Shown: positions 6,411 through 53,052 of the stretch, in pieces
Position numbering within the stretch: the first letter of the stretch is position 1
Layout of the letters: the number at the start of each line of letters is the position of its first letter
Source of the DNA: Neckera pumila
Lineage: Eukaryota; Streptophyta; Bryopsida; Hypnales; Neckeraceae
NCBI GenBank assembly: GCA_963969595.1
Contig: OZ018408.1
Span: forward strand, 47,865,022 to 47,929,021
Length of the DNA: 64,000 nt
Reading direction: 5' to 3'
Program-made: the position numbers and the translations under genes
Notes under the pieces: generated by a model
Databases searched by the model: none
Told to the model about the DNA's origin: nothing
What the model saw: the letters and a program-made list of their open reading frames with translations, nothing else

Positions 6411-6453
6411 ACCAAAATGCTCCTCTACCAATATATGGAACCAATTCTGAGCC

Positions 6454-10371: not shown

Positions 10372-10439
10372 TACAATGGCAACAATAGATTTTGCAATGT
10401 CTATAATTTTCATTTGAATAACTTTGGAATTGTTTTAAA

Positions 10440-10860: not shown

Positions 10861-11814
10861 GTTAATACAATGGTACAACTACAATAGCATCTACTATGGA
10901 ACTTTGTAAATTTTACTAATATCAATTGCATTGGTTTATCTTCTATAATTAGGCAATTGATGCAATGCTTAGAACTATTTGATTTTTCATACTTTTATTT
11001 TTATAATGTTTTTGTATTTTATTTTATAATTTTCCTTTTATGGTTTTATGAATTGTTAGTAATCATTTCCTATACTTGCACTTTCTTAGACAGGTAATTA
11101 TCTTGCCTTATGACATTCAATTGAAATTAATGTTTACTTTGCAATTCCTTTTGCAATGACTCTTGAAATCTTTGAAGTACTAAATACATTCAAATAGCTT
11201 CATCTTCTCCTACAAACCACCTTCAATAAGTTTACGTATATTATTGTACTTCAAAGTTCAAAACTTATGCAAATTAGAGATTTTAAATGTTGCAACTCAC
11301 TCAAAAGTCCATCTTATTAGAAACTGTAAAGTATTTTGGAAAGATCAAGTAGTCAAATTTCAAGATATGAAATATTAAAATGCTGAAAATTTTAAAAGAA
11401 TACAAGTATTTAGCTATTTACTGCTTCATGTCTAGCATCTTGTACTTCTACCTTTGGCACTAATTACAACATTCATTCTATGAGACATGGTTGATTTGAA
11501 AACTTCAAGCATGTTCATATAAGCTAGGAATACTATATATAGTATCAAGTCCATAAATAGTTACAATATACATATTCTTATTATTTCAAGGCATATATAA
11601 AGATTTCATGTACATAATAATTTGGAAATTTTCTCTAATGATTATTAATTTATTTTATTTTTTTCTTCCCATGTTGACCAAAATATCATAGTTCGAAGAT
11701 AAATGTAGTTTTTGTGTAGTTTCAAGGAAATATAAATGGTTCAGCTCTTTTAATACATGATTTAGGTTATGATATGAATTTTGTCCATCTTTGTGGGACC
11801 CTCTAAAGCATGTA

Positions 11815-29659: not shown

Positions 29660-29858
29660 GAAAATCTTCTTTCAATATAATATAAGGAACTCCCTAGATC
29701 TTAATTTTATAGAAAATTTGTAGAAAATAATGAAAGACCATATTCAAAATGAGCCTATGTCCAAGAATAGAGAAGGACTTATTGAATCAATTCAAAGAGC
29801 ATAAAAAGTAGGGTGTAAGTTGGGAATTCTATAAATGGTGTCGGGTCCTTGAACGGTT
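29660..29858 (+). pseudogene. Tc1/mariner transposase C-terminal remnant
   Basis: The plus strand reads SLDLNFIENL, a stop, KIMKDHIQNEP, then NREGLIESIQRA and further stops. SPDLNPIENLWK...KEELIESI.RAW is the conserved end of Tc1-type (DD34E) DDE transposases. The catalytic Glu is in IENL; upstream catalytic motifs are not recognisable. The remnant stops exactly where homology to the inverted-duplication arm begins (29858). Confidence 0.7.
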
Positions 29859-30075
29859 ATTATGTACATGAAATCATTATATATGCCTTGAAATAACAAG
29901 AATAAATATATTGTAATCATTTATAGACTTGACACTATTTATGGTATTCCTCCCTTATATGAACATGCTTGAAGTTTTCAAATCAACCATGCTTCATAGA
30001 ATGAATGTTGTAATTAGTGCCAAAGGTAGAAGTATAAAATGCTAGATATGAAGTAGTAAATAGCCAAATACTTGA
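29858..30075. repeat. Detached inner piece of the right arm
   Basis: It matches 11622-11402 of the left arm in inverted orientation (for example TTAGTGCCAAAGGTAGAAGT near 30016 with its complement near 11450). It is separated from the rest of the right arm by the 20.9-kb element. Confidence 0.9.
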
Positions 30076-30110
30076 AACACAAAATTAGACATTTTTGCAC
30101 TTGGCCAAGT
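30072..30110. repeat. Left end: TTGA target duplication, terminal repeat and palindrome
   Basis: TTGA at 30072-30075, the terminal repeat at 30076-30104, and the perfect 16-bp palindrome GCACTTGGCCAAGTGC at 30097-30112. GCACTTGG recurs at the right end and may be the transposase-binding core. Confidence 0.85.
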
Positions 30111-30112
30111 GC

Positions 30113-30750
30113 AATGATTGTATGCAAAACTATTCACACAAAACGTATTATCAAAAACTTGAGTACCCCCCAGATTTTCAAGAGATCTATTTTTTGATTT
30201 CATCGTGCAATAGTATCACTTTGAATGCAAACTCTCTATGAGGATGCCATTTTAGTTCTTCCTAGAGAAATACAAGTCCAATACATTTTATTTCTTTCTA
30301 TCAATCATTTCTTTTGGTCTCATGTATTCATTTTTCTACTCGGTACATTGCTATTACATTAGTGTTGTAATATTTAAATGAGTATACAATGTGTACAGCA
30401 CTATTCACTACAATTTTTGGAATATTTATTTATAAATCCAGAATGACATTGAAGGTTTAGCAACTACCTTCAAATTTTAAATTACGTGCTCACACCAATC
30501 AAAAACCAAACAATCATTCGAACATCTTCATATACTTTCAAAACTAGCACACAAGGTCTATACTCTCACACACCTTATTCTATCATTACACGTACTACTA
30601 TGTCTCTTATAATGACACTACTTCATCCGGTATCTCCAACACTCGTGCAGATGATTGCACCAGATCTTCTCCTTTTCCTCTAGCAATTGCCTCCACTTGA
30701 TCGTGTGCACTTGGTCCACCGATTGGACTCATTGAAGGCGGCGAGGTACA
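30113..30750. other. Left subterminal region of the giant element
   Basis: AT-rich, no gene. It would be the 3' flank of the leftward-reading coding region. Confidence 0.5.
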
Positions 30751-33700
30751 CTACAACGTCGTATTCACCATGGCGCTTGCAACAGACGTTGTCAGTCCCT
30801 TTGATAAAGTTGGCGACAGAGAAGGTCCTTCCAATATGGAAGTCATCCAGTGATAAATGTAATGTGGTCCTTCACCTGTCCGAGTGAATTGAATATTGTC
30901 CCTATTACGATAACATCCTTCACCATCCGGGACAAAGCTCATTTGATCCAATTGGCTGAATGCTGACAATGCTGACATGGACTCTATTTGCGTTGTTATA
31001 TCTGCACTTTCTCCCATGTCCCCTTCAACTTGTTCCATTTCCACGTTGTCCACCTCATCAACTGCTTCTGTAACAATAAAATCCGGGTCTTGTTCCACTT
31101 CCATCAAATCTACTTGGTCCCCACGGGCGTCACTGACTGCATCAGTGTCACGAGAACCTAAACTTCGCCCAGCACTTGGTAATCTGTCAGATTGTGTCCG
31201 CTCGGCATCACTGTCTTCTTTGTTTGTCGATGAGGCTCCCGAGTCAACTACTATAGTTTTCCCTTTCTGCCTTCCCTGTCTAATCACTTGAAATCTCTCT
31301 TCTTCATCGGAGGAGTCCCTGGATGACCGCGGTAGTCTTTCAACTCTACCACGTGGCACACCTCCATCTGTTTCAAAAATCCTGGGACCAGGCAAACTCT
31401 CTTCTGTAGTCAACATCTGCGAAGGTCTGCGTTCGGCGGCCATACTCACACTGTTCACCATCATCAACTTCTCCCCGTACATTGATTGCAATCTGTCGTA
31501 CACAAATTGCGTTTTGATGGATGCACCTTCCATAATGATAACATCATTGCCTACATATCCTGTCTCCAAAATCCCTGGCATTGCCATTGTGATGCCTAAT
31601 GTTACCAATCTCCAATTCCGCGGCAGATACATTTGTACCAATCTCTTCAACTCCGTTGGTGTCCTTTCAAATTTATCTTGTGCTCGAGGCATCACTTCTG
31701 TACTCCAAGAGTCTTGAAATACAACATTTAAGTCCTCTGTACTACTAGGAAGGTTTTCCATGAATCCACTCTCCTTCGGATAATTCATGATGATGACAAT
31801 GCCACCAACAAGTTGTACACCGCGGCGTCGTTGCTCGCTGTGACGCAGATCATTCACGTATGAAGACACCATTTCTGTTTGAAATATCCAAGAACCTTGC
31901 AGCACGTGGCAATCCTCTGACAATGCCATCCTCAACTCCATCGCTTCATCAAATGATACGCCTGGCGGAAACAGAAACACGGCATTCCAACGGAAAATGG
32001 AAGACATCCAATTCTTCAGTTGTTGCACAACCTTGCTGTAATCCTCGTTCGACCATGGGATGTCCTTCCCTTACAAACCTCCACGTCTACAATCAAAAAT
32101 CCATAAACTGGTTTGCCAAGTTCAATGTATTCGTCATCAAAGAACCTTTCTTTACATCTCACGTAAAATGAGGCTTCACGTTCTTCGTGTTGCACTATAG
32201 AGATTGCAACTTGCCAGTTCCAACGAGCATTTGATACATCCTCGACATCTCGACCATATCCCGCATAACCTTTGCGACCCGCTCGGATATCCACAAAGTG
32301 TTGCCTAACAAAAGCTGGGACAACATTCTCTAAATTATTTAGCATTCAAACCGTTGTCACTACAGGAAAACACCACGAGGTCTTCGTGTCATTATTCAAT
32401 GTCCTCCCCATCAAGATGAATTGCCTTCCTCTCGAATCTCCATACTTGCTTATGTCAATGGAGTAGAAATCATCCATCGACGATGGATTTTCATCCCCTG
32501 CTTCTACTATAAGAAACCGAATTTGGTTTCTGATCGCATCTTTCCGCTGTAAAGTATCCACCGCATATGCTATTGTACCTTTAGAGGGGTTTGCAAAAGC
32601 AGCATCATTGAAATAATACCGCTGCGAAGCGCGCTTTCCATTCACTACATCCTTTGCAACCATCTCCTGGACCACACGTACATAGTTTTCCGTAGAGATG
32701 CTGTTCAAGGGCCTCCACCAGGTCTTCTCCATCCTCTTGCGCTTCGGGTTTCCATCCACTGTGACATCAAGATTCTGATCTCTAACCGTCTTCTTCCATT
32801 TATTTTTTTGCTTTCTTGCTGAAAATAATTTTCCGTCCTCATAATCTTTGCACACCCGCAGGATAGCCTTATAGGAAACCTCGTCTTCATGCCAAGCATG
32901 GCGTATGTAGTCCACCATCTTCCTCGACAACTCCCCCAATGATACATGCTTTGATAAGTTCTGACTTAGATGTAATGCACTTCCTACCATTGTCAATGTT
33001 TTCGCTCTGTGTGCATCGTCAGCCCGAGTAGCAACACTTGGACTTCCACACGCTTTCCATATATTGTGCAGTTTGATGAGATTCTCGTAATGCGTGGTGA
33101 AGAACTTCCGATCAAATTCCTTCGCATTTATTTTCACCGACACTTCTATATAAAACTGAGGATTGTTGTACACTACAAACTTTGTTTTTCATCTCACAAA
33201 TTGCGCATGATACTCCTCATTGGATAAGTGTCCCTCTTCCTTTTCCCGTTGGGCTCGTTTACAATCACCAACAACATGTTGGCCATCTACTGACTCCCAT
33301 ATAATATTGCTCTCCAGCCACCTTTTCTGCAATGCGCTGCTTGAGAGGGATGAATCCGCCCGGCAATGTTTCAAATACACGGCTTCAAATTCACGTGCAG
33401 CACCTTCTTGGCTAAACGGCACTTCTATCACCTCCGTCTCGCCCTCGTCATTGCTACTGTCATAGCGATATGCAATGGGACGAAGGGTAATCGCACTGAC
33501 TCCATCAGCTTCGAATCCCTTGAGGCGCTCGTATATTTCATTCACACGCCAATCCATGAGTACCCTGTGGTTTGTCTCTGTGTTAGCCACATCGCGGATA
33601 CTATCGATCCTTGCATCAAAAATTAGACTTTGTCCCTATAAATATCCTGCTCTGTACTCGATCTCAGTAGGAAAAACCACAAGTGCTTTCGTAATACTCT

Positions 33701-35144
33701 TCGGCAATACTCTTCTAGGCTCTTGCTCCGGTTCACTCTCAGAGGAATCATTATCAATAACAGCATTTTTGCCATCATTTCCTTGTGGAGGGCGGCTTTG
33801 CAAGGCTGTTCTTTGACGACGTATTTGTGCTGTTGTTTGCTTCCTAGCGCCTTGCTCTTCTATAGCATCCGTTGGACGAGTGCGATGCCTTCTTTGGTCT
33901 TCTAAGATGTCTTCCACTACAGATTCATGTTGCAACACATTCCCACCACGTCCTCTATCAGCACCTTGTCCTCTACTAGCACCACGTCCTGCACCAGCAC
34001 TACGTCTTGTACCAGCTCCACGTCCTGTACCAGCTCCACAACCTCCACCAGCACCACGTTCTGCATCAGCTCTTCGTCCTCCACCAGCACTTTGTCCCCT
34101 ACTAGCACCTCGTCCCATATCAGCAGCCTGTCGTGCACGATCGGCAATTCTTCCAGCATCCACATTGGCTACTACAACATGTGATCTATACAATCTTCCT
34201 CCTAAGCGAATTCTTGGTTGTCTTGATCCAGAATCTGCTTCCGTGACTGTAGTTGCAGCTCCCTCGTTACCTTCGCTTGGAAAAGTAGGTAAAATCGGTG
34301 GTTCACTTGGTACAGGAATTTGAGCTGCAGCCCTGCTCGATTGAAACTGTTCCTCTTCAATATCTAGAGGCTCAAATGCTGGCATCACTGGTTTACTCCC
34401 TTGGTTCAATACCTCTTCTTGCCTTTCAATTTCATCATCACCAGTAGATTGAACGCCAACATCAGTGGTTGACGATTAGAGATGCTGACGATGTGCCCTC
34501 GGTGTACTAGAAACACCCTGCTCATCTGCATTGGTTTCTAATCCCGCTTCAACAGCAGCTCGCTTGCGACTTCTTTCTTCCACTGAAACCCAATTTGGAT
34601 TAACTTGCGCAGCAAGGTTTTGATATATTTCATTTGAGTCTTCTGGATCTTTAGGTGCACGCTGCTCTCGAGGAACATTTGGATTTGTCCTTTGTACTTC
34701 TTCAAGTCTACAAATCTCCATGTATTGATGACGTAATTCGCGTACTTGTTCAGGGGCCATCTTCATGAATTTTTGAACTACTCCCTCTCGTTTCACTTGC
34801 CATTCATGAGGCAATTTCTTCCAATGCAGAGCCACGGCTTTCAAGCTCCGCATGGGAGTGAGACATAAAAGGAGCTCTGGTGGAACAGGGGCCATCATGG
34901 ATATCTTCTGGAGTTTGTACTTCTCCAGAATTGTTTCCGTAGTGGTCACTGACACCGTCAATCCTCCGTCAGCGGTGCCCGTGAGGCCTTTGATGACTCC
35001 ATGTGAGGTCCCCACTGCAGACCAGTAACGGTGATCGTCAATTGGAAAATCAGTGATCCACAAAGAGGATCTCTCACTATCGTCTGCTACAATCCACCAT
35101 CCATGCTCCAACCACTTTGAATTCATCTTCGGTGCCATGATGCC
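30751..35144 (-). pseudogene. Long unrecognised accessory gene of the giant element, interrupted by four stops and a frameshift
   Basis: It opens after a splice-acceptor-like TTTCAG at 35145-35150, with ATG at 35138. From there to 32346 one frame is kept through TAA (34478-34476), TAG (33638-33636), TGA (33191-33189) and TGA (32348-32346). A frameshift near 32020-32075 leads into a 425-codon frame ending at 30751. The total is about 1,460 codons. Visible parts: an N-terminal globular region (WLEHGWWIVADDS...), a Gly/Arg-rich repeat stretch (RGA, GAGRGA units, about 34150-33930) with Pro/Glu-rich flanks, a basic stretch (NPKRKRMEKTWW) and an acidic Asp/Glu-rich part near the end. All four nonsense codons could come from CAA, CAG or CGA by single C-to-T changes. 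I recognise no family. Its place suggests a helper or accessory protein of the transposon. Confidence 0.7.
33930..34130. repeat. Coding minisatellite (Gly/Arg/Ala repeats)
   Basis: Variants of CACGTCCTGTACCAGCTC recur about eleven times, encoding RGA/GAG-type repeats on the minus strand of the accessory gene. Confidence 0.8.
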
Positions 35145-37238
35145 CTGAAATTCAGAGTTCAAGAATAGCTTTACATTCATAGACATTCTCGGTAGTTTTA
35201 AAATACATTATAAGAACTTGAAGACACATTCATAAATACACGTAATGTGAAAACTATGCTAGCACTGTTGTGAAGTTCAAATTTGATCAACAAAGACACC
35301 AAGATCCCAATTTTTTTAAATGTGTTAATGGAAGATCTACTGGATACCAAATATCTACTAACCTTCTTTCTATCCACTATTGAATCACATGTATATAAAC
35401 TGAATTGTTTTCCAACAACATTTGTTCTATTCTTAATACAAAATAAAATGAAGAACGTGTAAGAGCTCATACTACATTTTGAAAATTGAATGTCCTCTAC
35501 ATTTGACATATAAAAAACCTATTACTTGTCACTTGTATATAATATACAATATATGCCCTCACTATTATCTTCATTCACTATCTTGTAGACATCCACACAA
35601 AATCATATCATTTAATGTTTCAAAGTTGAAGTTCTATTTCTTTTTTCAAAACACTTTTATCGAGCTTCAAGATATTAAAATTCTATTACAAAACTAATTT
35701 TACAATATGTACATGAGAGATTCCAAAAAGCTATAGACCTACATTGCAATGTCATTTTTAGAATCGATCAAATGACCTGAAAAAACAATACCCTACTTGT
35801 TTGTATTGTCTTCTACGTTGTTCATGGCAAAACATAATTTTCAAGTACATGACAAATATTATATTGGGAATTCTTTTAAAAATTTCTTAATAAAAAAAAA
35901 CAAAATCAAACTGAATACTATGCAGTTCAAATAAACTATTAAAAAATCAATGATACTTTTCTATTAGAAACTCATGTATTAGCACCTCGTGTGCACATAT
36001 TGACTACAAGGAACTGCATCATACAGTTCCTATAGACAACGTCATAATGGTCTGAATATTGGGAATTCCTCTACCATTTTTTGCATAAATTATTTTAAAA
36101 ACTTAATAATGAGCACTTCTCTATGTACTTGCTATTTGCCAACTATGAAGGATTTCAAATTCTCAATCCTATCAACTACTTGCATGACGCCATTCTAGTA
36201 ATGCACTCAAGAACCATGGACTCAAAAATTTAATTTGCTCTTCATGCCCTCGACATAGGAGGTTCATCAAAATCTATATGTTATACATTGATACAGTTAC
36301 TTTTCACTTCAACACAATTCCTACAATACAAACACTTCACTAATGTGATGTGCAGAAGATTGCAAGTGTTTCTATTCTCTGAATTCTCAAAAAAATTTAT
36401 AAACTTCCTTGTTGGTTATGAGAAATATAATGTTCATTAAAAAATTTCTTTTAGTTGAACATGTATGTAAAACAAACACTCTGACGTACTAGAAATTGTG
36501 AATTCAAATTCATGCAAAATCACAAAGAAGTTGTACAACAAAAAGTTGTCTACACTCAAAATACTTCAAACTCCTGAAAGGGTACTGCTTACCTGCTTCA
36601 TGGCATAGCATGAAAAAATCCTAAATAGTCCTTTTTCTTCAACTATTACAATACATTATTCAAAATCATGAACTCTTAACTTTTGATGGATATTTTAACT
36701 TCAGTGTTTACCATACATGGCTATGATTAATAAATTTAAAAAATTTAATTTCGCCTTCTTTTCTTTGTCATAATCTTCAAAGTCATATTAATAATGCTTT
36801 CATCATATAATCCATTGAATCCTAAAATTCTATCTAAATAATCACCCAATAGTAACTGAAGACATGAATTATTGAATTCATACTTTGCATGGACATCTAC
36901 ATATATTGAAAAAATAAACAACAAGCTCAAAAAAACGATAATGACATAAGCATGAAGAACATGATTTCTCAAAGAAATGTAATGCTACTTGACCTTCTCA
37001 TAGGTAGAGAAAAATACCTGATGTGGATGTCGTTGTTGGTCTTCACTGTATAGAGAATCGTGCAGGTTGATAGACTATGCAGCACCAATTCACTACAAAT
37101 TCATGTGCTATGCATGTTATGCCTTCCTTCAAATATATGCCACAACCAAACGCACTATCAACATCTTCAACATTCCTTTCATTTGTTGATTGTATCTTTT
37201 AAACCGTTAGGCAAGAATTTATTCTAAAGAGTGACTTA
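35145..37238. other. AT-rich stretch between candidate exons of the giant element
   Basis: Probably intronic. One candidate small exon, 37053-37026 on the minus strand (TATACAG acceptor, CATCAG|GTATTT donor), does not match the phase of the next exon and is not called. A minus-strand frame at 36870-36745 (LLLGDYLDRILGFNGLYDES) follows CTTCAG and might be another exon. Confidence 0.3.
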
Positions 37239-40200
37239 CCTTTATTGAATATTACCGCGTTCACTATGCTAACCCTGGCAGGCACATCCTTCAAAAAAAA
37301 TAGATGTCACTCCAAGTTCAAAGGAGGGATCACAAATTACATAGAATGGGGCTAGCACTATGAGAATGACAAAATTCAAAGTTATAAGTCAAGCATGCTA
37401 GCCTTACAACAATCCTTTGAAGCAAAATTGAGGTGCTGAATTAATTGTACATATAGCATATTCAACAAATTGCTATGTGTACAAATTTTTTTACTATTAG
37501 TTTTATGTCATTGCTCTTTGATGTAGAATACTTGCTTCAAGTCTTTTTTCTATGCACATGAACATAAAACCATCATCTTCGCGTGCATAGACAATTAAGA
37601 TCAATTATTCATGAAGGTACTTCTTCCATACTTGAATCCTTTAATAGAAATCACTTTCCAATTATTCAATGCATTAAACCACGTGTGATCTTCCATTTTA
37701 TCAAGTGCCTATTCTAAAATCAAAGAAAATTTCAATACATTCAAGCACTATGTTATTTCTATATATTTTTTGAAGTGTCCTTTTTGAAATAGAAAAATAA
37801 ATTACTTCCAAGAATATAGTTTCAAAGATCCAAACATAACCTTTGCAATTAAAGTATGAACTATAGAAGTCGTAGTGAAGGTTGCTTGAAGACAACATAG
37901 AAAGAAATTTAAAAAAAACATCCATTTATATGATTGAAGAACTCATGTACACCATTTTAGTCTACATAAGATGCTTTCAATCAAGTCATTTGTATTACCA
38001 TGCAATGACAAATACATTGACCCTCTTCTTTTGCGGTCACCAAAATATATTCTTCATTATACAATGCACACAATAAACTTATGAACAAGATCATACAATT
38101 TCTTTCAAACTTTTAGTAGCCTATTTAAGTGTTTGATAGAACAATTCTCAAAGTTCTATTTTCTATTTTTCAATTTCAATTTCTACGTTACATTGATTTA
38201 CTTTTTTTTTTAATCCAAAAACTACTGCTACATTATAACTTCTTTTCAAACCAATAGCAAATGCTCTTGCTCGTAGAGCACTTCTTCCTTACAATGTTTG
38301 TAGTTGAAATTTTGTAAACTACTCCAGAAAAAAACTCTTCTAGTTTTAAGTTCAAATTTCATACTAATATTGCAGGGTGTACAGATATTTCATGCTAAAA
38401 CTGCATTACAAGACAAGGATATTTCAAAACAAGAAAGCCATGAACAAGAAGTTTTTCAAGTTAAATTTAAATTGTAACTGAAATCAACAACAAAATTAGA
38501 TCTATTCGTCATTTTTAGATAAAATATACTTAGTTCCATTTCAAACATAAATAATAGAAGGCTCTACATTTTAAAAATAATTATAATGATTTTTGTTTTG
38601 TTTGAATAGAAAATTCTACCTATCTCATACATCCATCATTGGCCTTTACTCATCAAAATTAAAAAAGAAAAAAAACATATAGAAAAACTTTATCGAAAAC
38701 CAAAAAAAAATCCTAAGAAGGCCAAAATCGTTAGAATACAAATAATAGGTACCTTCACATTTTGATTGAGGAGATTATCATTACAAAATTGAAGAAGACT
38801 TCTAATAGTCTTCTTCAACTACTATAGTTTTGAATTGTATGCCATCATAGTTCTTGAAATTTCTTGAAATAATCTACTTCAATTGTGTAAAAAGAAACTA
38901 CATTTACATATGATAGGAAAAATGAATCTCAAAAAATATATCCACTCAAAATTTTAATTAATGTTCCTAATGTGTTTTGATAAAAAATTTGGCTTTTTCC
39001 TTTTCAAAACAAAACTTAAATTTGCTTAGGAATAAGAATAATTTTAATATTGCCAGGAGAATACAGAAGTTCAAGACAATTACCTGATGCAATTTATATA
39101 GGGCTTGATGTCTATAAGTACCCACTTCTGCAAAACGATTACGAAGCTCCTTGTCTACGTTGTTGACTAAGAACATGTATTTTCCTCTAAATATAATAGG
39201 ACATAAAAAATAAGTGTCATGAACGTCGATCATGCTAGTGATGAGGTCTTCTGCTACATGAAAGTGTAAGAATCTCATTATTGCCCTACTTGTACAATTG
39301 CCTTCCAAAAAGACAACGCTTTTTCATTTCAAATATATAAAGAGAAACTTCTTAAAAGTAATAGGATAACAATTTAACTTGTGAAGGGTTGAATGCAAAC
39401 AAAATTTGATGCGTTTGTCATTTGTACGTAAAATATACATTTTTCAGCATAGAACATAAATATTGTCAAGGTTCTACATTTTTATAAAATTATCATGAGT
39501 TCTTCTTCTTTCTGAATAGGAATCTCTACCTATTCCTTATGTTCATTGCTGGCCTTTATTCTTCAAATTTAGAAAATAAAAATGTATATTAGAGAGGTAC
39601 TACCTAAAACCTAATAATTTTTTGATTATGCCATTAAAATTGGAATATCAATAAAAAATATATGAACATTTTGGTTTAAGAGTTTTTCAATGAAAAAGAA
39701 TTCAAATAACACTTCTAATAGTCTTCTTCCAATGCTATCTTCTTGAATTGTATGCCATCTAATAGAGTTTTTGAAATTTCTATTGTACAATATAATTCAA
39801 CTATAGCAGAAGAACCTACAATGAAGTATGATAGGAAAAATAAAGATCAAAAACACATATCCACACGTTTGTAAAAATGAGATTCCTAGTGTCCCCTAAT
39901 TAAAAAATTTGCTTACTCCTTTTCAGGACTGCACGTAAACTTCCTAAGGAATAATCGTCAATTGAAACATTGCCCAACAAAATACAAGAATGAAGGACAA
40001 ATACCTGATGCAATATATATTGTAGCTTGCAGCCTAAAATCACCCACTTTCTCCTACTTGATTACAAACCCCTTTGTCATATGTATTCATTTGAAGAAAC
40101 CTGGAACATGAAAGAAAATTGTCAATAACGTTGTTCATGCTTCATACTTGAAGATCTTTTAATATATTCATGATTGTGTCATTTGCAACTAATGAAGTCA

Positions 40201-41991
40201 TTTGCCACATGAAATGGTTAGAGTTTCACACTTATTTGAGAAAAAAAAAATTCATGTTCTCTTTACTTTTGGTATAGAAAATTCTACCTAAGTCTTCTAT
40301 GCATAGTTGGCCTATATTCTTTGGAAAAGAGGAATATTTAAATGTAAACAATTAACCAATGCCATTATAACTTTCTAAGAAAGCCAAGATAATTTGAATA
40401 TTAACAAATAGTATGTAAACATTTTGTTTTAGGTGGTTTGTAGCAAAAAAAAAGGGGAAAAAGACTTCTAATACTCTTCCTACAATGCTATTTCTATGAA
40501 TAATTGCATGCCATAAAGAGTTCTTCAAATGATTGTATTATAGTTTAATTCAATTGTACCAGAACAACCTATAGTGATGCATGATACAAAGAATGAAGCT
40601 CAAACAACATATCCATTCCTCATTGAAATTAGATTTCCTAATGTTTTATTATTCCAAAATTGGCACTTTCTACATTTTTGATTAAAGGCAAATTTCTCTA
40701 AAAAATCCTATATATGTGACATTTGCAACTAATGTAGTCAATTGCCACATGAAATGGTTAGAGTCTCATAATTGTCATATTTGTAGAATTCCCTTCCAAG
40801 AATAGTGCCCTTTCTAAAAAATAGTGTATGAAGAAGAACTTCTACAAAATATAAAAACACCGCTAAAAAGGTGAAGGAATTAGTGCAATTAAGCGCAATC
40901 TACAATGGAGAGGGAAGTAGTCAATGCAAACAAGCATCTTTCTTTTTTAAGACATGCTTATGACAAGATGGGTTATCCTTGCCCATGTACTTCAAAAAAA
41001 ATACTGAGAAGATGAAATTACTTAATAAAACCTCATTTCAATCATTTTTGTTGATCGCATAGACTTGAATTACCCGTAGCTGCCTACTGTATAAACTAAA
41101 AACAAAGATACAAAGCAAGATAAGCTATAACTTAAATAATGTACTGCCTTATCGGTATTCACAGTCAATCAAGGTCTCATAATATTGCACAATGACTGTT
41201 CATAGAAAAAAAATATATTGAATTGTGCCTTCAAATCTAGGATTTTGACCTGGTTTTTAATTCATCCACCGTTTTCAAATTAAGAAAATTAAACAATAAG
41301 CTATTATAGCACAGAAGAAATAGAGAAGCAATAAAGAGGTCATGTGCTCTTATTTTTAAAGTATAGTAACATTACTATATCTAAAAATTGCACCATGGAT
41401 ATTTTAACCATAAATGTACTCCTAATTTTTATATGATTCTATGATTGCTTTTGGGTACACCTACTCCAACACTTTGGAAATTTGTAGTTTATTCACATGG
41501 TGTCTAAAAAATGCATTCTAAGAGATTTTAAATACCCGTTTTGACTATTAGTGAGCCCCTACATTTTATTTCCATATACTAGAGAAAACCATGTTCAATC
41601 ATGCTAAATTGCTGAACAATAAGATTTAAGGTCAATTCCCTTGCCAACCTACAAGAGCTGGCTTGAGTTCTGGTCCATCACTTAGGTTTCCCTGCACATA
41701 AACTTCCTAACCTACAAGAGTGAGACAGGGAAATATCGTGAGTCCCTTGGGACACACACAGAAAACGATCATACCAAATCAAACTCCTGCGTCACTAAAT
41801 TGAACCTCCATTGTTGAACCTAAGTTTTTAGAAATAAGGAAAATTAAGAGCTCACTAAGCGATCACACTCAACAAGCATCACAATGTTACTTAATTATTC
41901 AAAAACAACTGTCAAACAGATTGATGCTCACTTTCTCCTTATAATCTTCAAACCCTAAACGCTCATCAAGTGTATGCCCAGTTCTCTCCAT
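37239..41991 (-). CDS. Candidate 5' exons of a leftward gene in the giant element
   Basis: Four candidate exons join in frame: 41991-41932 (ATG; MERTGHTLDERLGFEDYKEK), 41691-41649 (GNLSDGPELKPALV), 39301-39084 (ending ALYKLHQ at a CAG|GTAATT donor) and 37287-37239 (DVPARVSIVNAVIFNK, donor AAG|GTAAGT). Phases at the three junctions are 0, 1 and 0, and every border has AG/GT. The chain reads toward the accessory coding region and could be its 5' end, but the join to 35144 is not resolved. No known domain. It could also be chance order in AT-rich DNA, except for the third exon, which is a long open frame (73 codons). Confidence 0.4.
38460..40860. repeat. Three diverged tandem units of about 0.6-0.9 kb
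   Basis: The unit contains GAAAATTCTACCT followed by TGGCCTTTA-type words, ACCTGATGCAAT and GCCACATGAAATGGTTAGAG-like sequence. Copies begin near 38460, 39370 and 40240. The exon-like part is open only in the first unit (39084-39301); in the second (about 40014-40230) and third (about 40700-40800) it is broken by stops. Confidence 0.65.
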
Positions 41992-44240
41992 TGCTCTGAG
42001 CTCTCTTCCTCAAGGGGACTTAATTGAGGGTTCTGTACCAACCCTAAACCAGCTATCCTGCAATCTTGGAGCGGACAGCAAGTACAGAAGGGCCGGGTTT
42101 AGGCGCTAGGGTTTCCATTCACAAAGGTGTGTATGTAACGTCGTTGAATCTATAGGCTTGGCTGCAAGTTCCATTGTTTAACTTAGATTCCATCTACTTT
42201 TGCTCATACGGTCGCACTTTACTATTTTGCTTCTTGAATGCTGTGTTTGAAATCTAGATATCCTAACTAGATTCTCCAGTTTGGAAGTGAGACAAATCAA
42301 TTGCTCATACTGCCCTGACTGAAAACAAGCTTTCAGCTGCTGTTTGCACGCAGTAGCTGAAACAAGCTTTCAGTTGCTCCAGTGAATTCATCAGGTTACT
42401 AAGAAATTTGTTACTGCTTGTTTCGATCCACACGCTTCCAAGGGAGGAGAGTATCTGCTGAAGTGAAGATATACTTTGCTTTTGCAACACAGCTGCCTTA
42501 ACACAAAGATCGACAAAAATCAAATTAAATTGAAAGACTAGGTAAGGAAGAGCAGCAATCGTTTGAAGGTAAAGCACGTTTCATGAACGTCGATTCTCTG
42601 CAATCATACATGCGGGAAGACTTTCAATGAAATTTATTTGGTTTTTGATTGTGCAGGAAAACCACCGCTCGAACTGCCTACTACGCTCAAACTGCCTAGT
42701 ACAATCCTTCCGGTATCTAGTCGACCTCGCACATACAGAGAAGTAAATTGACCACTCTACGAAAATCCTCTGAAGGCAACACTTAACCCTCACCCTCGAT
42801 CGGAACGTCAGTCCGCTTGTGTGCTTGTCAGTGAACTTAGAACAAGGCTAATATGCTCATTCCTGTCCACATTGTCGTATGCAGTCTACGGAGGGCAGTG
42901 AAATTGATGAATCTGTTGCTATTGCAGGACAAGAAATTCCTGTGTAAGAGTGCTAGCTGCACTTTCCCTGTTGCAATTCAAGCGGGCTCTTGTGAACAAA
43001 CAATTACCTGCTGGGGTCGCTGAGTCCAAGAACCTCGCTAAGCTCACCCTCACCCTCAATTGGAAAGTAACTGCTGGTAAGCAAGCTTCCTCTTTGTTGA
43101 GAACCACCAAATTGTGCTCTTCGTACTGTGAACTGAAGAAAAAAAAATTGAAACCAATTATGCCTTTCAAAAATCCTGCACAGAAGGTGGTCGTACTCTC
43201 TGGCAACCAACTCTGGAACACTCCGATCTGCAACCAACAACACGCAACAACAATTGAACGTGGGAAGGTGGCTCTCACCTGCACCAACGAAGGCAACGAC
43301 AAGCAATTGGGAAAGAAGGCTTCCTCTGCAGAGCGTGTGGATACCAGAGGTGAGCGGGAGCGAAAGTAGTAAGCGCGTGGGACCGGGAGCGCGTCAGTTG
43401 CACCGACCCGACAATGCGGAAGCCCACAACAAGAAAGATAAAAGTCAAAAAGAAAAAGAAAAATCCTTTTGCATTACAACGAGGACATGTAGACAACACA
43501 GAAACGCGATGTAGAAGTTGCCCTCAGCCTTTTGCGCTAATTTCAAATCTCATGATTGCAGGCGCAATGAATAGTATCCGCTGTCAAACCCTCCCCAAGT
43601 GCGGGGGGTTCAACAGCAAATACTGTTCACCGCCTCTATAGCGCAGTAGCAACAAGCAAAAGGTAGTCGTTGAAGTACTTGAAAAGAACAAGCAAAAGAA
43701 ATTAGTTTTCCTTACTTGGATCAGGCATTGAGTCGCTCTTGCGAACTATACTCCCTGTCCGCTTTGATGCCGAGTGCCTCTCTTCTCTATCCGCTGTAAA
43801 ATTGAGCGCCTCTCTCCTCGAGTAGCACCCCCTGCTGATCACAGAAGCGGTTAGAGTTGGAAGCATTGGCAGAAGTTTGACCTGTGAGGGCCTCCCTAAA
43901 ATTGCAAAAAAATGAAGAACGTGATTGCGTTATCATAAGACCTGGTCTGTTGTCTCCCCCAGAAAACACGAAATGATTTCATCAGAGGTTGCGGAGATAT
44001 ATATTGAGAATCAAAATTTGCGGCGTTGCCAACGTGATTGACGCGTTTTGAACGGCAACTAGCTCTCTGTCTCTCTTGTTCTAGGACTATCCAGACGGAT
44101 TTCAGAGCTTCTTCAACTAACCCTAAACTGACCGACAATTCAGAAATCAAGTGTGACCCTATTGCAACATGCTCGTCACATCCCCTCTCAATCGGCATCC
44201 TTTACCCCCAATTCAAAGTATCGGAGGTTCATTGATTTCT
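41992..44240. promoter_or_regulatory. GC-richer central region of the giant element with telo-boxes
   Basis: Base composition is clearly less AT-rich than on both sides. Telo-box-like AAACCCTAA / CTAAACC words occur near 41952, 42045 and 44118. It lies between the leftward and rightward gene blocks and may hold their promoters or untranslated exons. A 27-bp word GAAAGCTTGTTT... is repeated in tandem near 42310-42375. Several open frames of 70-139 codons overlap on both strands; none has a known domain. Confidence 0.35.
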
Positions 44241-44422
44241 GTATTTGTGGACTACCACCGAAGTTGAACTCTGAAAAGTAGCGTTTTTGTTTGTGTGTGA
44301 CGACTGGTTTTCATTTGTGGTCCTTCCGATTTCCCAAACCGTCATTCTTTGAAAATCATTTGCTGACTTCTTCCCAGAGTGTTTCTGTGCTCTTAGCAGG
44401 ACTCAAGTACTTCACTTAATAT

Positions 44423-44732
44423 TCCTTAAGGTAGGCATCTCTTAAAGCATGCTTGTATTAGCTGATTGCATTTAGGGGTAAACTAAAATCTTTGAAATAA
44501 TTTTTAGTAAAGTCCTGTAGGAAGAATAATGGAATTGGCATCTAATCCAAGTGGTTTCATATTTTTTGGACGTTTGTGGAATTAGTTACAATTTTCTAAA
44601 ATTCAAATGCAAGGGTCACTAAAAGTGACCCCCTATTGAAATGTACACTGTTGGTACACTAAAGAAAGCATATGCTATCTCTTTGTTAGAGGTCACTTTT
44701 GAAGCAGGGTTACTTTAAGAGCCCTACCTTAG
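44423..44732. mobile_element. Short foldback element
   Basis: AAGGTAGGCATCTCTTAAAG near the left end and CTTTAAGAGCCCTACCTT at the right end are inverted repeats. It contains AAGTGGTTTCATATTTTTTG, shared with the long foldback element at 19735-20571. Confidence 0.6.
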
Positions 44733-45653
44733 CCCCAAAAGTCCCAAGGCAATTTTTTGTCAAAAACGACTCAAAATTGCTAGTTCTGCTGCATTCAACT
44801 AAAAAAAGAGAAAAAATAATTTTTTAGAATCTAACCATAGCATCTTGTACTAAAATTATCTCAGGTCATATTATAAAATTTTTATAAAGTTTGACCGTAC
44901 AGATTAGAAGAAATTAGCATTCCAAGTTGGAAAAAATTGATTTTTGAACACTGATTTGCAATTTCAAATGACTTTGACCCCCATTTGTAAAAAAAATTTG
45001 CACTATAAACTTTGAATTTAATTTTTTTTATATTGAATAACTGAGTCGAGAATCTAAGAAAAAGGGTTCCAAAAAAATACACATGATTTTCATTCTTTAA
45101 AAAATTGTTAAGTAGAACTAGGTCTAAGATTAAAAGAAAAACTAAATCGTCAATAGCTCTAAGATGGGATTAAAACACTATAATTCCAATGGTGAGATTC
45201 TTTTAGCAAGCAAACTCAGACGTGCTCAACAATTTTTTTTGAAAAATAATGAAAATTGCATTCAGAAATGAGTCCTATAAGTTATTTTTTCAAGAAGATG
45301 CTCTAATTGTCCAAAAAAGAAGATTGTCCATAACTTTCACATAACAAATCCGAATGGAATGAATCAAAGCTTCCCTTATAGATAAAAATACAATCTATGA
45401 GAAAATTGTTTTTTATTTTTTATTTTATATTTTTTGTATGAGAAGATTTCTACCCACCGCACCCAAAAAAATGCCCTTTTTTGCCATAACTTTTGCTCCC
45501 GGGCACCGATTGAAATAAAAATCATATTCCCATGAAGCTAATGTGTTTTACTATCTTCACAGAAAGTTTTAGAAAATAATGATGAATACTAAAGCCGTAG
45601 TTGCTTGCCCAAAATCCATTTGGTCCCAGGAGGGGACAATGGGACTTTAGGGG
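44733..45653. mobile_element. TTAA-flanked inverted-repeat element, copy B
   Basis: The left end is CCCCAAAAGTCCCAAGGC after TTAG (44729-44732). The right end is GGGACTTTAGGGG before TTAA (45654-45657). The sequence inside matches copy A in inverted order, including GGGACAATGGGACTTTAG and AAAGTCCCAAGG with the following GTCAAAAA block. Inserted in the giant element. Confidence 0.72.
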
Positions 45654-45657
45654 TTAA

Positions 45658-47289
45658 AGTCTCTGTCACGGGGAATTCAAGTGCCATGTGCATGCCATGG
45701 TCTCTTGAATAAAAAATTTGTAGAATGAGAATGCGAGAATCTATTAAAGCATCCGCCTCTTCAAAGGTTCATTAATTATGAACCCAAAGAAGGAAAAATT
45801 GCCTGTATGGGATTCCTAGAGCTTCTTAGTATATTATAATTCAAAATGATTCAAGACTAATGTATTTAAAGTAGGAGTACTAAAATGTAGAGAAATAAAA
45901 TTTTGGACACATGTAACCATAGGTTCTTATAATACGTAATTTGTAGAAGGTATATTAAAAAAAAATTCAAAAATGTCCAATATGTGGATTGTAGAATAGT
46001 CACTTTCAAATTCCAAAAATCGTTCCTTGTGCAGTATAAGGAACATGGCAGTTGCTTTTAAAAAGGGCACATTTGCCATCCTAAATGTCCATATTGGTGA
46101 TTCTTCTTTGTATTTATTGTTGAAAGTAAGTTTAACAAAATTGATAGCACGTAAAATTGTGTAACATTTAGAAAATAATAGTAGGTAGAAAACTTGAGCT
46201 AATGATTTAAAATAATAAATAATAATGAATTTAATTATAGAATAGGAAAATGCCCATTTGTAGTAGTTGTAATGATGTACTGCAAAATTAAATCCTATGA
46301 TTTAAATTTTTTGAAAAAACATTGAAAATGGAGTTAAATGAAGGACTTAGGAAGAATTGTAGAGTAGGTAATCCATAAATAAGCGCACATTTAAACAACT
46401 CATTATTTTCATCTCATTTATCAAAATGGAATGATTAAAGTCTTTCCACATCTGTAGAAAATTGTAAAATCAATTATACTTTCTTCGTTTTTTTAATATT
46501 GATTTTCTTTGATTTGCCTTGATTGTTGTGTTGATGGAAAAAAAGTAATGCATTTAACGCATATAACATTGTAATCCTATAATTAGTAATCTTTGAAATA
46601 GTAAATTTGTTTTTTCAAATTTCATTCCCTCTTTTTGTTATTCCATTTAAATGGAATAATAGAATTCCATTAGTTGTGATTTTTGTGAAATCGTACTTTT
46701 CTTGGAAAATACACCTCGGTCCATTAGGGATTAATGAGTTCCTCTAGAGCACAATGTTTGTTAAAGACTACTACGTTCATATAGAGTATGTTTGCAAAGT
46801 GTTGTATAACTTTTACGAAATCGACTAGGATTTTATTTGTGGTTAAGTTTAGGTTTGTTTGCTAAATAAATTTCAGTGCTTTCAAGGATAATGTTCGCCA
46901 AAAATTGGAAGGATAGTTTGTTTTATTTGGGGATCTTAATTTCTAACCTTATAAGAAGTATTAGTTCCATTAATTTATCAAAGTGGATGGGAAGGGGTCA
47001 ACTGTCTTAAGAACTTTTGGTATGAACATGTAGGTCATAGAATGATTGGTTTCTCAATGAGTAGCACGCACGTATTAGTCAAAGCAAAGGAGTGGAGGAA
47101 CACATAATGAAATTAATGGTTTTCTGGTGTTTATATTAATTAGGATTTTTTTGCAAGCTTGGAAAGCTTTCTTCTCAAAATTATTTTTTGAATGGAATTG
47201 CATTGAGGGTACTAGTTCAGTAAGATATTGAAATAATTCCATATTACTAAAAAAAATACTTAATTGTAATGTAGTAGTGACAGAAGAAA
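45658..47289. other. No gene recognised
   Basis: AT-rich DNA upstream of the transposase-like gene. A promoter is expected but none can be pinned down. Confidence 0.5.
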
Positions 47290-50200
47290 ATGGCGGAAGA
47301 AGCATTTGGAAGTCCAATGGTTTTCAATGCAGTGGGCACCACGGTGGTTGCAACAGAGCAAAAAAGTATAGGAGAAAGATTGGCGCGTGTGGTACGGGGA
47401 AGACTTTTCGAACAAGAAGAGTGTGCACCTGTGGATGGAGAACCGCAGTCTATGAATGGCATGGTCCAACTTCTTGGGGATGAAGGACGTATTGTCGGAG
47501 TTGGCGTGCTGGATACCAATTTTGCATGCGGTGATGAACTTCACTACATGAAATTACGTCCTTTTGAAATTGCGGTTCTTATAACACGTGCTGTACAGGA
47601 AACAGAATCACTACAAGGGAGCAGTGTCAATTCGGACATTTTTTTGTCAATTTTTTGTCAATTTGGACATTATTTTGTCAATTTTCTGTCAATTCGGACA
47701 TTTTTTTGATAGGATTCTGTCAATTCGGACATTTTAGTCAATTAGGACGTGTCAATTCGGACACTGTTTTCTTGTAGTGAATGGGTTGGGAAGTTGGTAG
47801 GAAAAACTATAGGAGATTGTGTAGGTGAAGTTATACGTTGGCGTCGTGCTTCAGTTCGTCATGCAATTCCCTCCGAGGTGAGAACGACAACAACAAATGC
47901 AAGGGAGGGGTAGAATTTTTGTTTTCCTCCAGTTTCTGCATCGGTTTTTTATTTTCATGATGTGGATGACAATCCAAGCACATCCGATTTCACGCCACCA
48001 AGTCCAGGTGGAGGAAGCACAGCTGAAGGAAGTTCTCCTCTGACACAATCCTCTGAAGGCAACACTGGTTACACTGCGGATTTTACAAGAAGTGAAGGAC
48101 TGCTTGAGCATGCTTCGAGGAGGAGGTATTCAATGGCAAATCGAAGGGCGAGGGTGAGAAGTCCGAGGGAGAGGGGGGAGTCTACTAGTCAGAAAGTTAC
48201 TCTTGACAGTGTTATGTGTGTGAAGGAGAGAGGAGCATGTAAACGTAATTGTTTGCGTGATGTAGACGCAAAATATGTATTGGACCAACGATATATGGCC
48301 TGGGGCAGAAGTACAAAGCACGCGCGACTTGGATAATGCAAATGCTTAATGCCTTTTACACTCGCACGGAGGGTCCAATGAGAGACAAGTACGTGACAAA
48401 ACTAGATGGCATAGTTGTGTGCAATGCATGCTACGCCACGGCGTTGGATTATTCTCAGAGGCGTTTGAAGCAATTGAAGACAGCACATGTTGTATATGGC
48501 AGAGTGGCAGCTATTCATGGAAACAGGTGCCAGCAGAGGGAAAGTGCAAAAATGTCAGTAGCTAGAAAAAGCCTCAACGTTTTTTTCAACGAAGCAAGAT
48601 GTCAACAACCCCATCGTTCAATTCGCAGGAAAATGGACAATGCGGTGCTACCACTAATTCTGCTGCCAATGAATATGAGCAAGTTGGACGTTTTTCAATA
48701 TGTGAATAAAGAAGTGAAGAAACTAGTAGATGGGTCGGAGTGGTCGATGACTTCGTTTTGTCGACTCTGGTGGAAGGAATTTCCGCATGTGCAAATCCCA
48801 CCGTTCTCTCGGTTTTCAAAGTGCTATCATTGTTGGGAGTATAAGTGGGATGGAATCCACCATGAATGCAGTCGCGAAGATGAAGATAAAAGAGCTGTAC
48901 GTGCTATACATTCGATATCAAATGGAAGAGAGGCGAGATTATTGGTTGTTCAAGAGGTCCGCGATGATCACTCCAGACTTTTTCATGTGTTTGATTGTGG
49001 ACGGTATGGATCAAAACACGACCATTATACCAAAGATGAGGCAGACTGTGAAGAACATTGAATCTCGATTTGTGAAGACTCATTTATGTGGTGTACTTGT
49101 ACATGGTATCGGCTTGTATGCAGACGTGTGGATAGATGCTCACCACAAACATGATAGCAATCAAGTTGTAACGTCGGTGATGGACGTCATATGCGACGTG
49201 AAACGAAGGAAGGGGTCATTGCCACCAACGTTGAGGATTCAAGCGGATAACACCACGAGGGTGAACAAGAATGCCTACATGTTTGCCATGTGTGCTGCAC
49301 TAGTTGGTCTTGGTTTTTTCAAGGAAGTGCATCTTTGTTTTTTGATAGTGGGCCACACACATGAGGACATTGATCAGAGATTCAGTGTGATTTCAAATGT
49401 ATTGAAGAGGAGAGACATAGACACTTTGACAGAGATGTTGCAACTAGTGGAGAAGGGAACGTTGTACACAGAGGCTTTTGTAAGTGCTTGCAAGCTTGAG
49501 CACATTTGCGATTGGAAGGCATTTATCACACCTCATTTACTATGAGGAGGGGGATCACTGACGGGCATCACATTTCCGCACCATATGAGGTTTTACGTAG
49601 ACAATGGATTGGTCCGTATGCAACACAAGCATTTTTGCACAGATGAGTGAGGCCCAACGAGAGGGCATTTGTGTTTGAACTCACTACCGAGCGTAGCAGA
49701 GAAACCGGACCTCGCGGAGGTATTTGCAGCTGATCAAAGGGAATTGAAAGCATTGGACGAGTTCATTGCATACAAGAAGAAGATGATAGAGAGAGGCTTC
49801 AACTCGATCAGGATCATAGAAGTGGTGGACGAAATAGAACAATTCAAGGAGTATTTGGAGGAATTTCCACAACGAAATAGAGAAGGCATCCGTGATTTAC
49901 CATTTTGGCCTAGCGATGTCTTGAACCAAAACATGGACAATGGAACTGTTCCTGACGTGGAAAGAGGTACAATTCCAAGTGCAGTTGCTGATGAGGATGG
50001 AAATAGAATGGAGAGTGCAACAGTTGACAGGATCATGGCGACAATGCCAAATCCTGAGAGGAGGGGGTATTTCGGACCCTACAGAGATAGACCTGCACAA
50101 GCAACATCACAAAGAGTGACTGGGGGGAGGATTCGAAGCAGAAGGAATGAAGTTATACCAGAGCTACGACAAGATGCAGAGGAAGATCCGTTTCCTCCAT

Positions 50201-50674
50201 TCAATCCAGAGAATGACGTTGTTGTAGGGCAATATGTAGCCCTTACCGTAGAACTAGCGGAAGTAAGAAGAGGAGTACCCTTTTTTTTTAGGGAAGGTGC
50301 TAGAATTCGGCCAAGAGACGTGGGCCTCGAAGATGAAGGTCCTGTGGTATTGGCCTACTGTGAGACCTGGAGCACATGATGAAGCAGGTAGTAACCGAGT
50401 GAGGTACACAAATTGTATGGAGTCAACATGGGAACCGTCTGGTGAGATGTTGGGCTGGACTGAGAAGGAAGCCGCTATATATTCATGGACGGATGTCCCT
50501 TGTCGAGGGAGAAGTGGTGTTGTTATAGGTTCCAAGATTACAGTGTATGGCGTACAAATAGAGGAGACAGTGATCATTCCACCGGAGGCTAAAGCGCATC
50601 TTCTGGAATACATGGCAATGCAGATGGAGAACCTAGATGACGTACGTCTGCAGAATGATTTGAATATGTATTAG
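47290..50674 (+). pseudogene. DUF7869-like (DDE-type) transposase gene of the giant element, decayed
   Basis: The first exon starts MAEEAFGSPMVFNAVG (47290). Next comes a Ser-rich linker, then a Cys region (VKERGACKRNCLRDV, KLDGIVVCNACYATAL), a basic region, and a catalytic-looking core: LIVDGMDQNT (about 48996), RIQADNTTRVNKN (about 49234) and VGHTHEDIDQRFS (about 49353). These three acidic blocks and the GHTHEDID signature are typical of DUF7869 proteins, which look like RNase H-fold transposases. The C-terminal part (KMKVLWYWP, ...SWTDVPC...VIGS) completes the usual family layout. Damage: a 171-bp CACTA MITE at 47609, frameshifts near 48335 and 48870 and at the T-run 50281-50288, and stops TGA at 49543-49545 and 49648-49650. 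It would cut and join the element ends when intact. Confidence 0.8.
47609..47779. mobile_element. 171-bp CACTA MITE inside the transposase gene
   Basis: Ends CACTACAAGGGAGCAGTGTC and (complement) CACTACAAGAAAACAGTGTC, with a 3-bp AAT duplication at 47606-47608 and 47780-47782. The inside is made of GTCAATTCGGACATTTT repeats. Taking out the element and one AAT restores an open frame across the site (ETE followed by WVGKLVGKT). Confidence 0.93.
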
Positions 50675-50953
50675 TGAAGTATGATATTATGTAGTGCTCT
50701 TTGACCTTGTAGTTGTAGGTATGTAGAAGTACTTGAGTGTGAAGCGCAGAGTAATATGTCTTCAAAGTAGTGTGGAGTGAAAAGTGTGAAAGGTTTTCAT
50801 GAAATATTTATAAAAAATAGAGTGTTTGACAACTTTTCACCAAGCAATTTCTCCTAGTGAGAGCAAATGATGTTTTCAGTAATCCCTCCCCCCCTCAACA
50901 TTTGAGACTATCCATTTTAGATGCCGTACTAGCCAAGTGCAATGTTGCAAACC
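50675..50953. other. Right subterminal region of the giant element
   Basis: The short stretch after the transposase-like gene includes a CCAAGTGC word at 50934-50941, which repeats the core found in the terminal repeat. Confidence 0.5.
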
Positions 50954-50986
50954 CCAAGTGCAAGAATGTCTAATTCTGTGTTTTGA
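50934..50986. repeat. Right end: terminal repeat and TTGA target duplication
   Basis: The terminal repeat is 50954-50982, followed by TTGA at 50983-50986. Two CCAAGTGC words (50934-50941 and 50954-50961) lie in direct orientation, against the palindromic pair at the left end. Confidence 0.85.
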
Positions 50987-52030
50987 TTTTTTTTAAACTT
51001 TTCAACATGTGAATATTTCATATCTTGAAAATATACTACTTGATCTTTCTAAAATACTTTACAGTTTCTAATATGATAGACTTTTGAGTGAGTTGTAGCA
51101 ATTTGAAATCTCTAATTTGTATAAGTTTTCAACTTTGAAGTACAACCATTTATGTAAACTTATTGAAGGTGATTTGTAGGAGAAGATGAAGCCCTTCAAA
51201 TGTATTTCATACTCTAATGATTTCAAGAGTCAATGCAATAAAAATTATGAAAAAAATGCTAAATAAACATTAAATTCAATTGAATGTCACAAAACAAAGT
51301 AATCTCTTGTCTAAGAAAGCGCAAGTATAGGAAATGATTACTAACAATTCATAAAAATCATAAAAGGAACATTATAAAATAAAAGACAAAAACATTATAA
51401 AAATAAAAGTATGAAAATACAAATTTGTTATTGTAAGCATTGCATCTATTGGCTAGTTGTAGAAGACAAACCAATGCAATTGATATTAGTAAAATTTACA
51501 AAGTTCCATTGCAAACATTGTTGTAGTTGTATCATTGTAGTACCAATGCAGATAGAATGCAATCTATACCTTAAATTAGGTTGATTGCTTTTTTCATTTG
51601 TTATGCTGAGATCTAAGAAATGGTGAGTCTCCCGGCTGCATTTTTGGTACCATTGAGAAGCTCTTTGCGAGGAGGGGTGCACAAACTTTGTTTCGTAACG
51701 TTTGAACTTACGGTGTGAAAGTTATGGCTTTTTGAATTATTTTGAGATAAATAAATTCCACTATCTTTTATTTTGGGAAAACATAACTTTCACATTGCAT
51801 GTCAAAATGCCATGAAACAAAGTCTTTGCACCCCTTTGTGCATAAATCTTTCTATTTCAAATGATTAAATTTCAATTTTTTATAAATTTTAAAACTTCAA
51901 AATAACTTTTACTTTTATTTTAATTTTGGCAATAATACAGGGCACACTAGTATTCTATTTAATAAAATGAGTGCAAAGTTATTCAAATGAAAGTAATTTG
52001 CATTGCAAAATCTATTGTTGCCTTTGTACA

Positions 52031-52240
52031 GCAGAACCTCCCTAACTCATTCCTCTAACTCTTTAAGCTAATGTTGTTAGATTGGTCCCGAACTTGTCCC
52101 CAATATATAGGTTTTGACTAAAAATGACCATCCAAAAACAAATAAACCTCTCTAAGCTAATCTTGTCAAACTAGTCATGGACCTATTGCTTTAGAGAGGT
52201 TCTATCGTTTTAGAGAGGTTCTATCGTACTCTAGTGTAAG
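52031..52240. mobile_element. MITE of the GAACCTCT type, longer right-arm version
   Basis: It opens with TACAGCAGAACCTCCCTAAC and closes with a repeated TAGAGAGGTTCTATCG word (twice, near 52194 and 52210). It corresponds to the 90-bp MITE at 10282-10371. Confidence 0.6.
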
Positions 52241-53052
52241 GTAGAAGGTCCATAAAGCGATCTTCTAAACGTTAAAACTGAATTTTGGGGAAGGGAAAAC
52301 ATCTTGAAATATTATTTTGTAAATTTCCCTTGAAAGACAAGACGAAATGGCATATGGACATAAAATTTGGGCAACTCACTACGAATGGAAATTTTTTTTT
52401 TTTTGGGCAGCTCACTACGAATGGAAATTTTATTTATTTTCTTTGAAAATTTCACACAATGTGTGCCCGAGGAGTACCTTTAAGGCCCAACAATTTTCAA
52501 AACTTTTGACTACATGGTTAAAAAGTTAATATTGGATGATATGTCATTTTCAACAATCGGCGAGCAGCTCAAAAAATTCTGAAAAATCACTTTTTAAGAA
52601 AATAAAAATTTGAAATGGTTCTTTAGATTTATATATACGCATGAAGCTTTGAATTATTCTATTTAGATTTATGAGATAAAAATTATGAGGTGTTCTAGTT
52701 TGCGGGCAGTTATAGGTTCCCTACTCTAGAATAAACTTAGAAGTCCTTTATCTAATTCACTTTTTAATATTTTTTGAAAAAATAAAAGCATAGGATGTAT
52801 GTTATTTACTACAACATTATGACTGTTGGGATTGAAATTTTTTTATTCCATAATTAAGTTCTTAACAATTTCGTGTTTTGAATCATTCTCTACTTCTTTT
52901 TACAACCTATTTTTTTCCTATATGTTGTACAATTTCAAATGATCTCAATTTTTCAAGCATATATCCAACTTGCTTTGAAGAATGAATCCAAGGAGTAACC
53001 ACCATTTTGGACATTTTTTCATTTAAATATGACCTTGTGAAGTGCAACTGCC
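52241..53052. other. Right-arm insertion, no gene recognised
   Basis: AT-rich sequence with a tandem GCAACTCACTACGAATGGAAATTTT-like word (first 20 bases GCAACTCACTACGAATGGAA) near 52372 and 52410. No counterpart in the left arm. Confidence 0.45.

Follow-up and report, generated by a model that had tools for sequence, protein, structure and literature searches.

We report that a 20,907-bp element in a 64,000-nt stretch of Neckera pumila contig OZ018408.1 (the window, to whose positions the coordinates refer, element at 30076-50982) is very probably one dead copy of a giant DNA transposon of this plant, bounded by terminal inverted repeats (TIRs) and belonging to a DDE cut-and-paste lineage. 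We call its family A. The element carries a gene for a protein with the Pfam domain DUF7869 and a second long gene, LG, and its ends show insertion with a 4-bp stagger and repeated mobility. The TIRs, 29 bp each, are identical at 27 of 29 positions and are flanked on both sides by TTGA, just as the first-pass annotation of this DNA had described them. The window holds a large inverted repeat (2949-11620 against 50988-59232 plus 29857-30074); the element sits in one of its arms, and the other arm is uninserted. It had been claimed that the homologous arm reads through the insertion point with a single TTGT, and this was confirmed, since the joined flanks (100 + 100 bp) align to the uninserted arm over 200 columns with zero gaps, TTGT replacing TTGA. 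This empty site is paralogous and demonstrates insertion only; the simplest reading is that insertion came later than formation of the arms.

To find other copies, the genome was searched with 70 bp of the left end (129 first-look candidates) and 111 bp of the right end (108 candidates), and the best 40 were scored for each. Both ends match at 40 or more places, the window's own included, and the scored ends are spread over ten contigs; eight left ends are 100% identical over all 70 bp, again counting that of the window. A DUF7869 gene follows at least 28 of the 40 left ends, 12-24 kb downstream and on the same strand (a count made with 87 of the 150 scored DUF7869 matches), and for at least 22 left ends a scored right end lies 11.1-25.2 kb away. 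Eighteen of these pairs span 19.9-25.2 kb, and the shorter ones (three at 11.1-11.7 kb, one at 14.0 kb) are possibly deletion derivatives.

Twenty further copies, picked among the 28 left ends with a downstream DUF7869 gene, were then read together with the window copy. An exact 4-bp target-site duplication (TSD) is present in 18 of the 21 copies (17 of the 20 others, plus the window). As a control, lengths of 3 and of 5-10 bp gave a match in none of the copies, and equal 4-mers occur in only 2 of 420 mismatched pairings. The flanks differ among the 20 other copies, and the duplicated 4-mers vary (ATTT, GTAC, CACC, GGTG, TTGA and others) rather than repeating one fixed target word. The search for further copies with both ends and 4-bp repeats, which the first-pass annotation had proposed, thus returned 17 exact duplications in 20, and the absence of any second locus of this kind, which it had named as grounds for abandoning the transposon, was not what we found.

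Each of the two genes reads away from the middle of the element. An open reading frame (ORF) of the right-hand gene matches PF25273 (DUF7869) with E=1.5e-47, which, with the predicted DDE/RNase H fold, bears out the earlier assignment of a DUF7869-like transposase. The gene is broken in the window, and copy L048 has an uninterrupted frame of 1,067 amino acids. A 31-bp tandem repeat (TGTCAATTCGGACA..., 47625-47763) lies within the frame of the window copy and is missing from that of L048. The predicted model and its fold matches are of the RNase H/integrase DDE(D) type, with three acidic residues that are conserved across homologues, and we therefore model DUF7869 as an RNase H-fold DDE(D) transposase. 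A PDB profile search with alignment A1 returned 2 rows, neither credible (E>=0.5). When the copies were compared with L048, six of the 20 rows (L052-L056 and L058) differed at 73-85 sites in codon position 1, 53-66 in position 2 and 213-229 in position 3. This third-position excess between subfamilies indicates that the transposase was kept functional between them, while single copies decay.

The second long gene, also claimed earlier to read outward, was indeed found on the minus strand, with open frames within 30751-35207. Copy L087 has an uninterrupted LG frame of 1,540 codons, so that intact frames, whose existence the first-pass annotation had asked to be checked, occur elsewhere in the genome for each gene. 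A 280-amino-acid piece of LG has 139 genome matches, the longer of which fall into tiers of about 79-90%, 68-71% and 40-48% identity. We compared the positions of 80 of these 139 matches with the 150 scored DUF7869 matches, taking those of at least 146 bits as higher-scoring. At least 70 of the 90 higher-scoring loci have LG 12.8-32.4 kb upstream, divergently oriented in all 70, against none of the 60 lower-scoring loci; in a shifted control the mean was 0.81 and the maximum 4. The remaining 59 LG matches again gave none at the 60 lower-scoring loci, and placed LG upstream, divergent in 11 of 11 cases, at 11 of the 24 higher-scoring loci supplied; the figure of 70 in 90 is therefore a lower bound. 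Because this divergent pairing recurs, we consider LG and DUF7869 to be an old and stable unit of one branch.

The protein encoded by LG gave nothing credible in Pfam, NCBIfam and PDB sequence searches. Among 5.8 billion proteins it has 11 distinct relatives (5 by one search, at least 10 by a profile search in which 7,988 candidates were scored), all of them environmental sequences and none with an informative name. The motif WEP(V/I)DGQH is conserved in 12 of 12 aligned LG sequences. It resembles a DGQHR/ParB-like signature, a likeness that found no support in Pfam and is kept as a lead.

Between the two genes the longest ORFs of the window copy reach at most 184 amino acids, and this region is part of the element. 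Positions 35300-38300 are matched almost over their full length in 11 other copies, at 93-98% identity (37 of 37 candidates scored), and positions 41000-44000 match at least 15 others at 88-94% along 1.6 kb or more (best 40 of 1,938 first-look candidates). The body of about 20 kb is conserved and belongs to the element.

A second DUF7869 family, B, with ends AAGGCCATATTCG..., was found in the same genome among the lower-scoring loci. At least 14 of the best 40 scored family-B right ends are identical over 67 bp, and a 24-bp terminus, allowing up to 3 mismatches, gives 464 hits against 0 for the reversed control. Ten end pairs were picked near 20 kb from the listed rows, a choice that favours this length; they measure 19,586-19,996 bp, and 8 of the 10 have an exact 4-bp TSD (none of the ten matches at a length of 3 or 5-10 bp, and mismatched pairings agree in 2 of 90 cases). 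Other pairs among those listed are about 16.3, 19.6, 19.8, 23.8 and 26.0 kb apart. Since family B also reaches about 20 kb, giant size is not peculiar to one family. At least seven inverted pairs of the family-B terminus lie only 255-285 bp apart, resembling miniature inverted-repeat transposable elements (MITEs). An LG partner was not detected at the lower-scoring loci, those of family B included, a result of the match positions, the family-B interior itself being unread.

Table 1. Features of the family-A copy in the window, and selected family-B loci (genome coordinates)
Feature	Position	Strand	Remarks
Homologous empty site, TTGT, inverted left arm	11402..11405	-	gap-free alignment
Left TSD copy, TTGA	30072..30075	.	
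Left TIR, AACACAAAATTAGACATTTTTGCACTTGG	30076..30104	+	27/29 to right TIR
Motif pair TGCACTTGG/CCAAGTGCA, inner edge of TIR	30096..30113	.	candidate transposase-binding site
LG, second gene, broken by in-frame stops and frameshifts	30610..35207	-	extent from alignment to L087, 94.6% identical
Centre, ~12 kb without long ORFs, part of element	35208..47280	.	AT-rich, ~25-38% guanine plus cytosine (GC) per 500-bp block outside the GC-richer stretch at ~42.0-44.5 kb; shared with other copies
GC-richer centre, candidate bidirectional promoter and 5' exons of both genes	42000..44500	.	41-48% GC; putative role
DUF7869 DDE(D) transposase gene (modelled), broken	47290..50674	+	tandem-repeat insertion at ~47.6-47.8 kb, frameshifts, stops
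PF25273 (DUF7869) match	49063..49644	+	one internal stop; holds second aspartate and GHTHEDID motif of the RNase H-like core
Right TIR	50954..50982	-	27/29 to left TIR
Right TSD copy, TTGA	50983..50986	.	
Family-B giant copies	G000 C1:15716156-15735879, C3:35597702-35617611 and eight more		~20 kb, 4-bp TSDs
MITE-like family-B pairs	G000 C1:21913145-21913400, C2:4753125-4753381, C3:40332268-40332523 and four more		

Several observations weigh against the assignment of the element to a cut-and-paste DDE lineage. Three of the 21 family-A copies lack an exact TSD, two agreeing at 3 of 4 bases and one being mismatched, and a cut-and-paste rather than a copy-out mode is what we infer from sequence. 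In the DUF7869 model the block with the GHTHEDID motif has a mean predicted local distance difference test (pLDDT) score of 71. A Foldseek search gave zero matches at E<=0.001, and Argonaute PIWI domains make up most of its best rows (E>=0.008), which also include TnsB and Mos1. The other 14 of the 20 rows compared with L048 (13 fetched copies and the window) have fewer differences and a weaker third-position excess. For LG, differences between the window copy and L087 number 78, 67 and 81 at the three codon positions, with almost no third-position excess, which is expected of decaying copies but does not count as evidence in favour, and 20 of the 90 higher-scoring DUF7869 loci have no LG partner when 80 of the 139 LG matches are used. 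The LG structure model is unusable (mean pLDDT 37.8) and the protein has no recognisable domain, so any role given to it is a guess.

The relation to known superfamilies was judged mainly by motifs between the second D and the last E of the transposase. CACTA/En-Spm elements have TIRs and a DDE transposase in common with the element described here, and also include autonomous plant elements with two genes. PMC12730594, which treats them with Chapaev and Mirage, gives C(2)C and H(3-4)H motifs for both CACTA/CMC and Transib; these were not found in the DUF7869 homologues (one row is gapped at the motif). The C/DxxH motif, ascribed to hAT, MuDR, P, Kolobok and Dada in PMC10045372, is present in 0 of 70 DUF7869 homologues. 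Judged by these published motifs, the element is not a member of CACTA/CMC/Transib, hAT, MuDR, P, Kolobok or Dada. Ginger1 and Ginger2 share 4-bp duplications and an integrase-like fold with DUF7869 elements, but are characterized in PMC2836005 by TGTNR termini and CCGG or RTATAY targets, Ginger1 being 2.6-7 kb long. In contrast, the ends start with AAC/AAT in family A (20 copies; AACAC) and with AAGGCC in family B (10 copies), and the targets are not CCGG or RTATAY. Judged by its ends, the element is not Ginger either.

We tentatively propose, as a reading that falls somewhat below an even chance, that DUF7869 defines a distinct and undescribed cut-and-paste superfamily whose members in this plant are habitually giant, at about 20 kb. 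It would have two kinds of TIR unrelated to each other, 4-bp TSDs and short MITE-like derivatives, and one of its branches would have retained an ancient LG, divergently oriented and separated from the transposase gene by a centre that is long (in the window copy, about 12 kb) and for the most part non-coding. Literature searches returned no paper mentioning DUF7869, none for four spellings of the GHTHED motif, and no element of this layout among the titles and abstract openings of the matches listed.

Likewise somewhat below an even chance is the explanation that the element belongs to a named superfamily with TSDs of about 4 bp, Sola or AcademX, with Pfam calling its transposase DUF7869, in which case size and second gene alone would be new. 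DUF7869 relatives are found among proteins of sea urchin, sponge, oyster and lancelet, animals with catalogued transposons. Sola elements are DNA transposons with 4-bp TSDs and have this duplication and a DDE transposase in common with ours; neither a size of about 20 kb nor a divergent LG partner is known as a feature of Sola. AcademX agrees in TSD length (3-4 bp, PMC10045372). Against this assignment, no XPG nuclease or helicase Pfam match was obtained in either full-length gene product, nor did XPG turn up when 6 of the 18 central ORFs listed were scanned.

It is very improbable that the element is a composite, with about 12 kb of captured DNA, from the host or a foreign source, carried as cargo between two small elements. 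In favour of this, little of the centre is coding, and the part at 41-44 kb has pieces that recur elsewhere (the 1,938 candidates above). However, other copies, 11 to 15 of them at least, share this centre; the two genes stay divergently paired while LG falls to 40-48% identity; and family B, whose TIRs are different, is of comparable length. Given the shared centre and the retained pair, we rejected this explanation. The size of about 20 kb could also suggest a self-synthesising or virus-derived element, since giant eukaryotic elements such as Polinton/Maverick, Teratorn and large Helitrons (reviewed in PMC6431247) reach tens of kb as well. Here, in contrast, we find a simple TIR/DDE element with two recognised genes and 4-bp TSDs, and no replication or virion genes in the ORFs scanned. 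No polymerase, capsid or protease Pfam match was obtained in the scanned ORFs of the window copy or the two full-length products, the DNA polymerase B and capsid that mark Polintons being among those not matched. No entry of a viral fold library matched at E<=0.001, and viral contigs yielded 28 pattern matches, zero of them confirmed DUF7869 relatives. This origin is extremely improbable. That no transposition occurred and the repeats only mark where the inverted arms or a segmental duplication end, as the position inside one arm might suggest, has next to no probability and is ruled out by the differing flanks and duplications of the dispersed copies, and the arm homology crosses the empty site gap-free.

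The arms themselves are 82-97% alike piecewise, with an 18-kb spacer, and have no ORF of 170 amino acids or more in the ORF listing. A full-length plant signal recognition particle RNA gene (Rfam RF01855, 144 bits) lies at 2482-2770, about 180 bp beyond the outer edge of the left arm, and speaks for a plant as the host. Between the arms there are self-complementary stretches at 19742-20553 (80%) and 24911-25296 (84%), possibly foldback-type elements.

In the mechanism we propose for the giant transposon, the DUF7869 protein would bind the TIRs and the TGCACTTGG motifs and cut both ends, and the whole of about 20 kb would go into a staggered 4-bp target cut. The GC-richer part of the centre is probably a promoter shared by both genes. 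LG may help transposition or escape from silencing as an accessory protein, a guess by analogy with two-gene plant transposons such as En/Spm, a CACTA element (tnpA and tnpD), and MuDR (mudrA and mudrB). Lacking intact proteins, the window copy could be mobilised only in trans, if at all.

The efficiency of cut-and-paste elements usually falls with length, and two families of about 20 kb with different ends would offer a natural system for studying, in a plant, the movement of long DNA by a DDE transposase. In genomes of this kind, a gene-poor block of 20 kb can be one transposon copy. The findings also suggest a function for a Pfam domain of unknown function that occurs from plants to sea urchins, and provide in LG an orphan partner protein that is directly testable.

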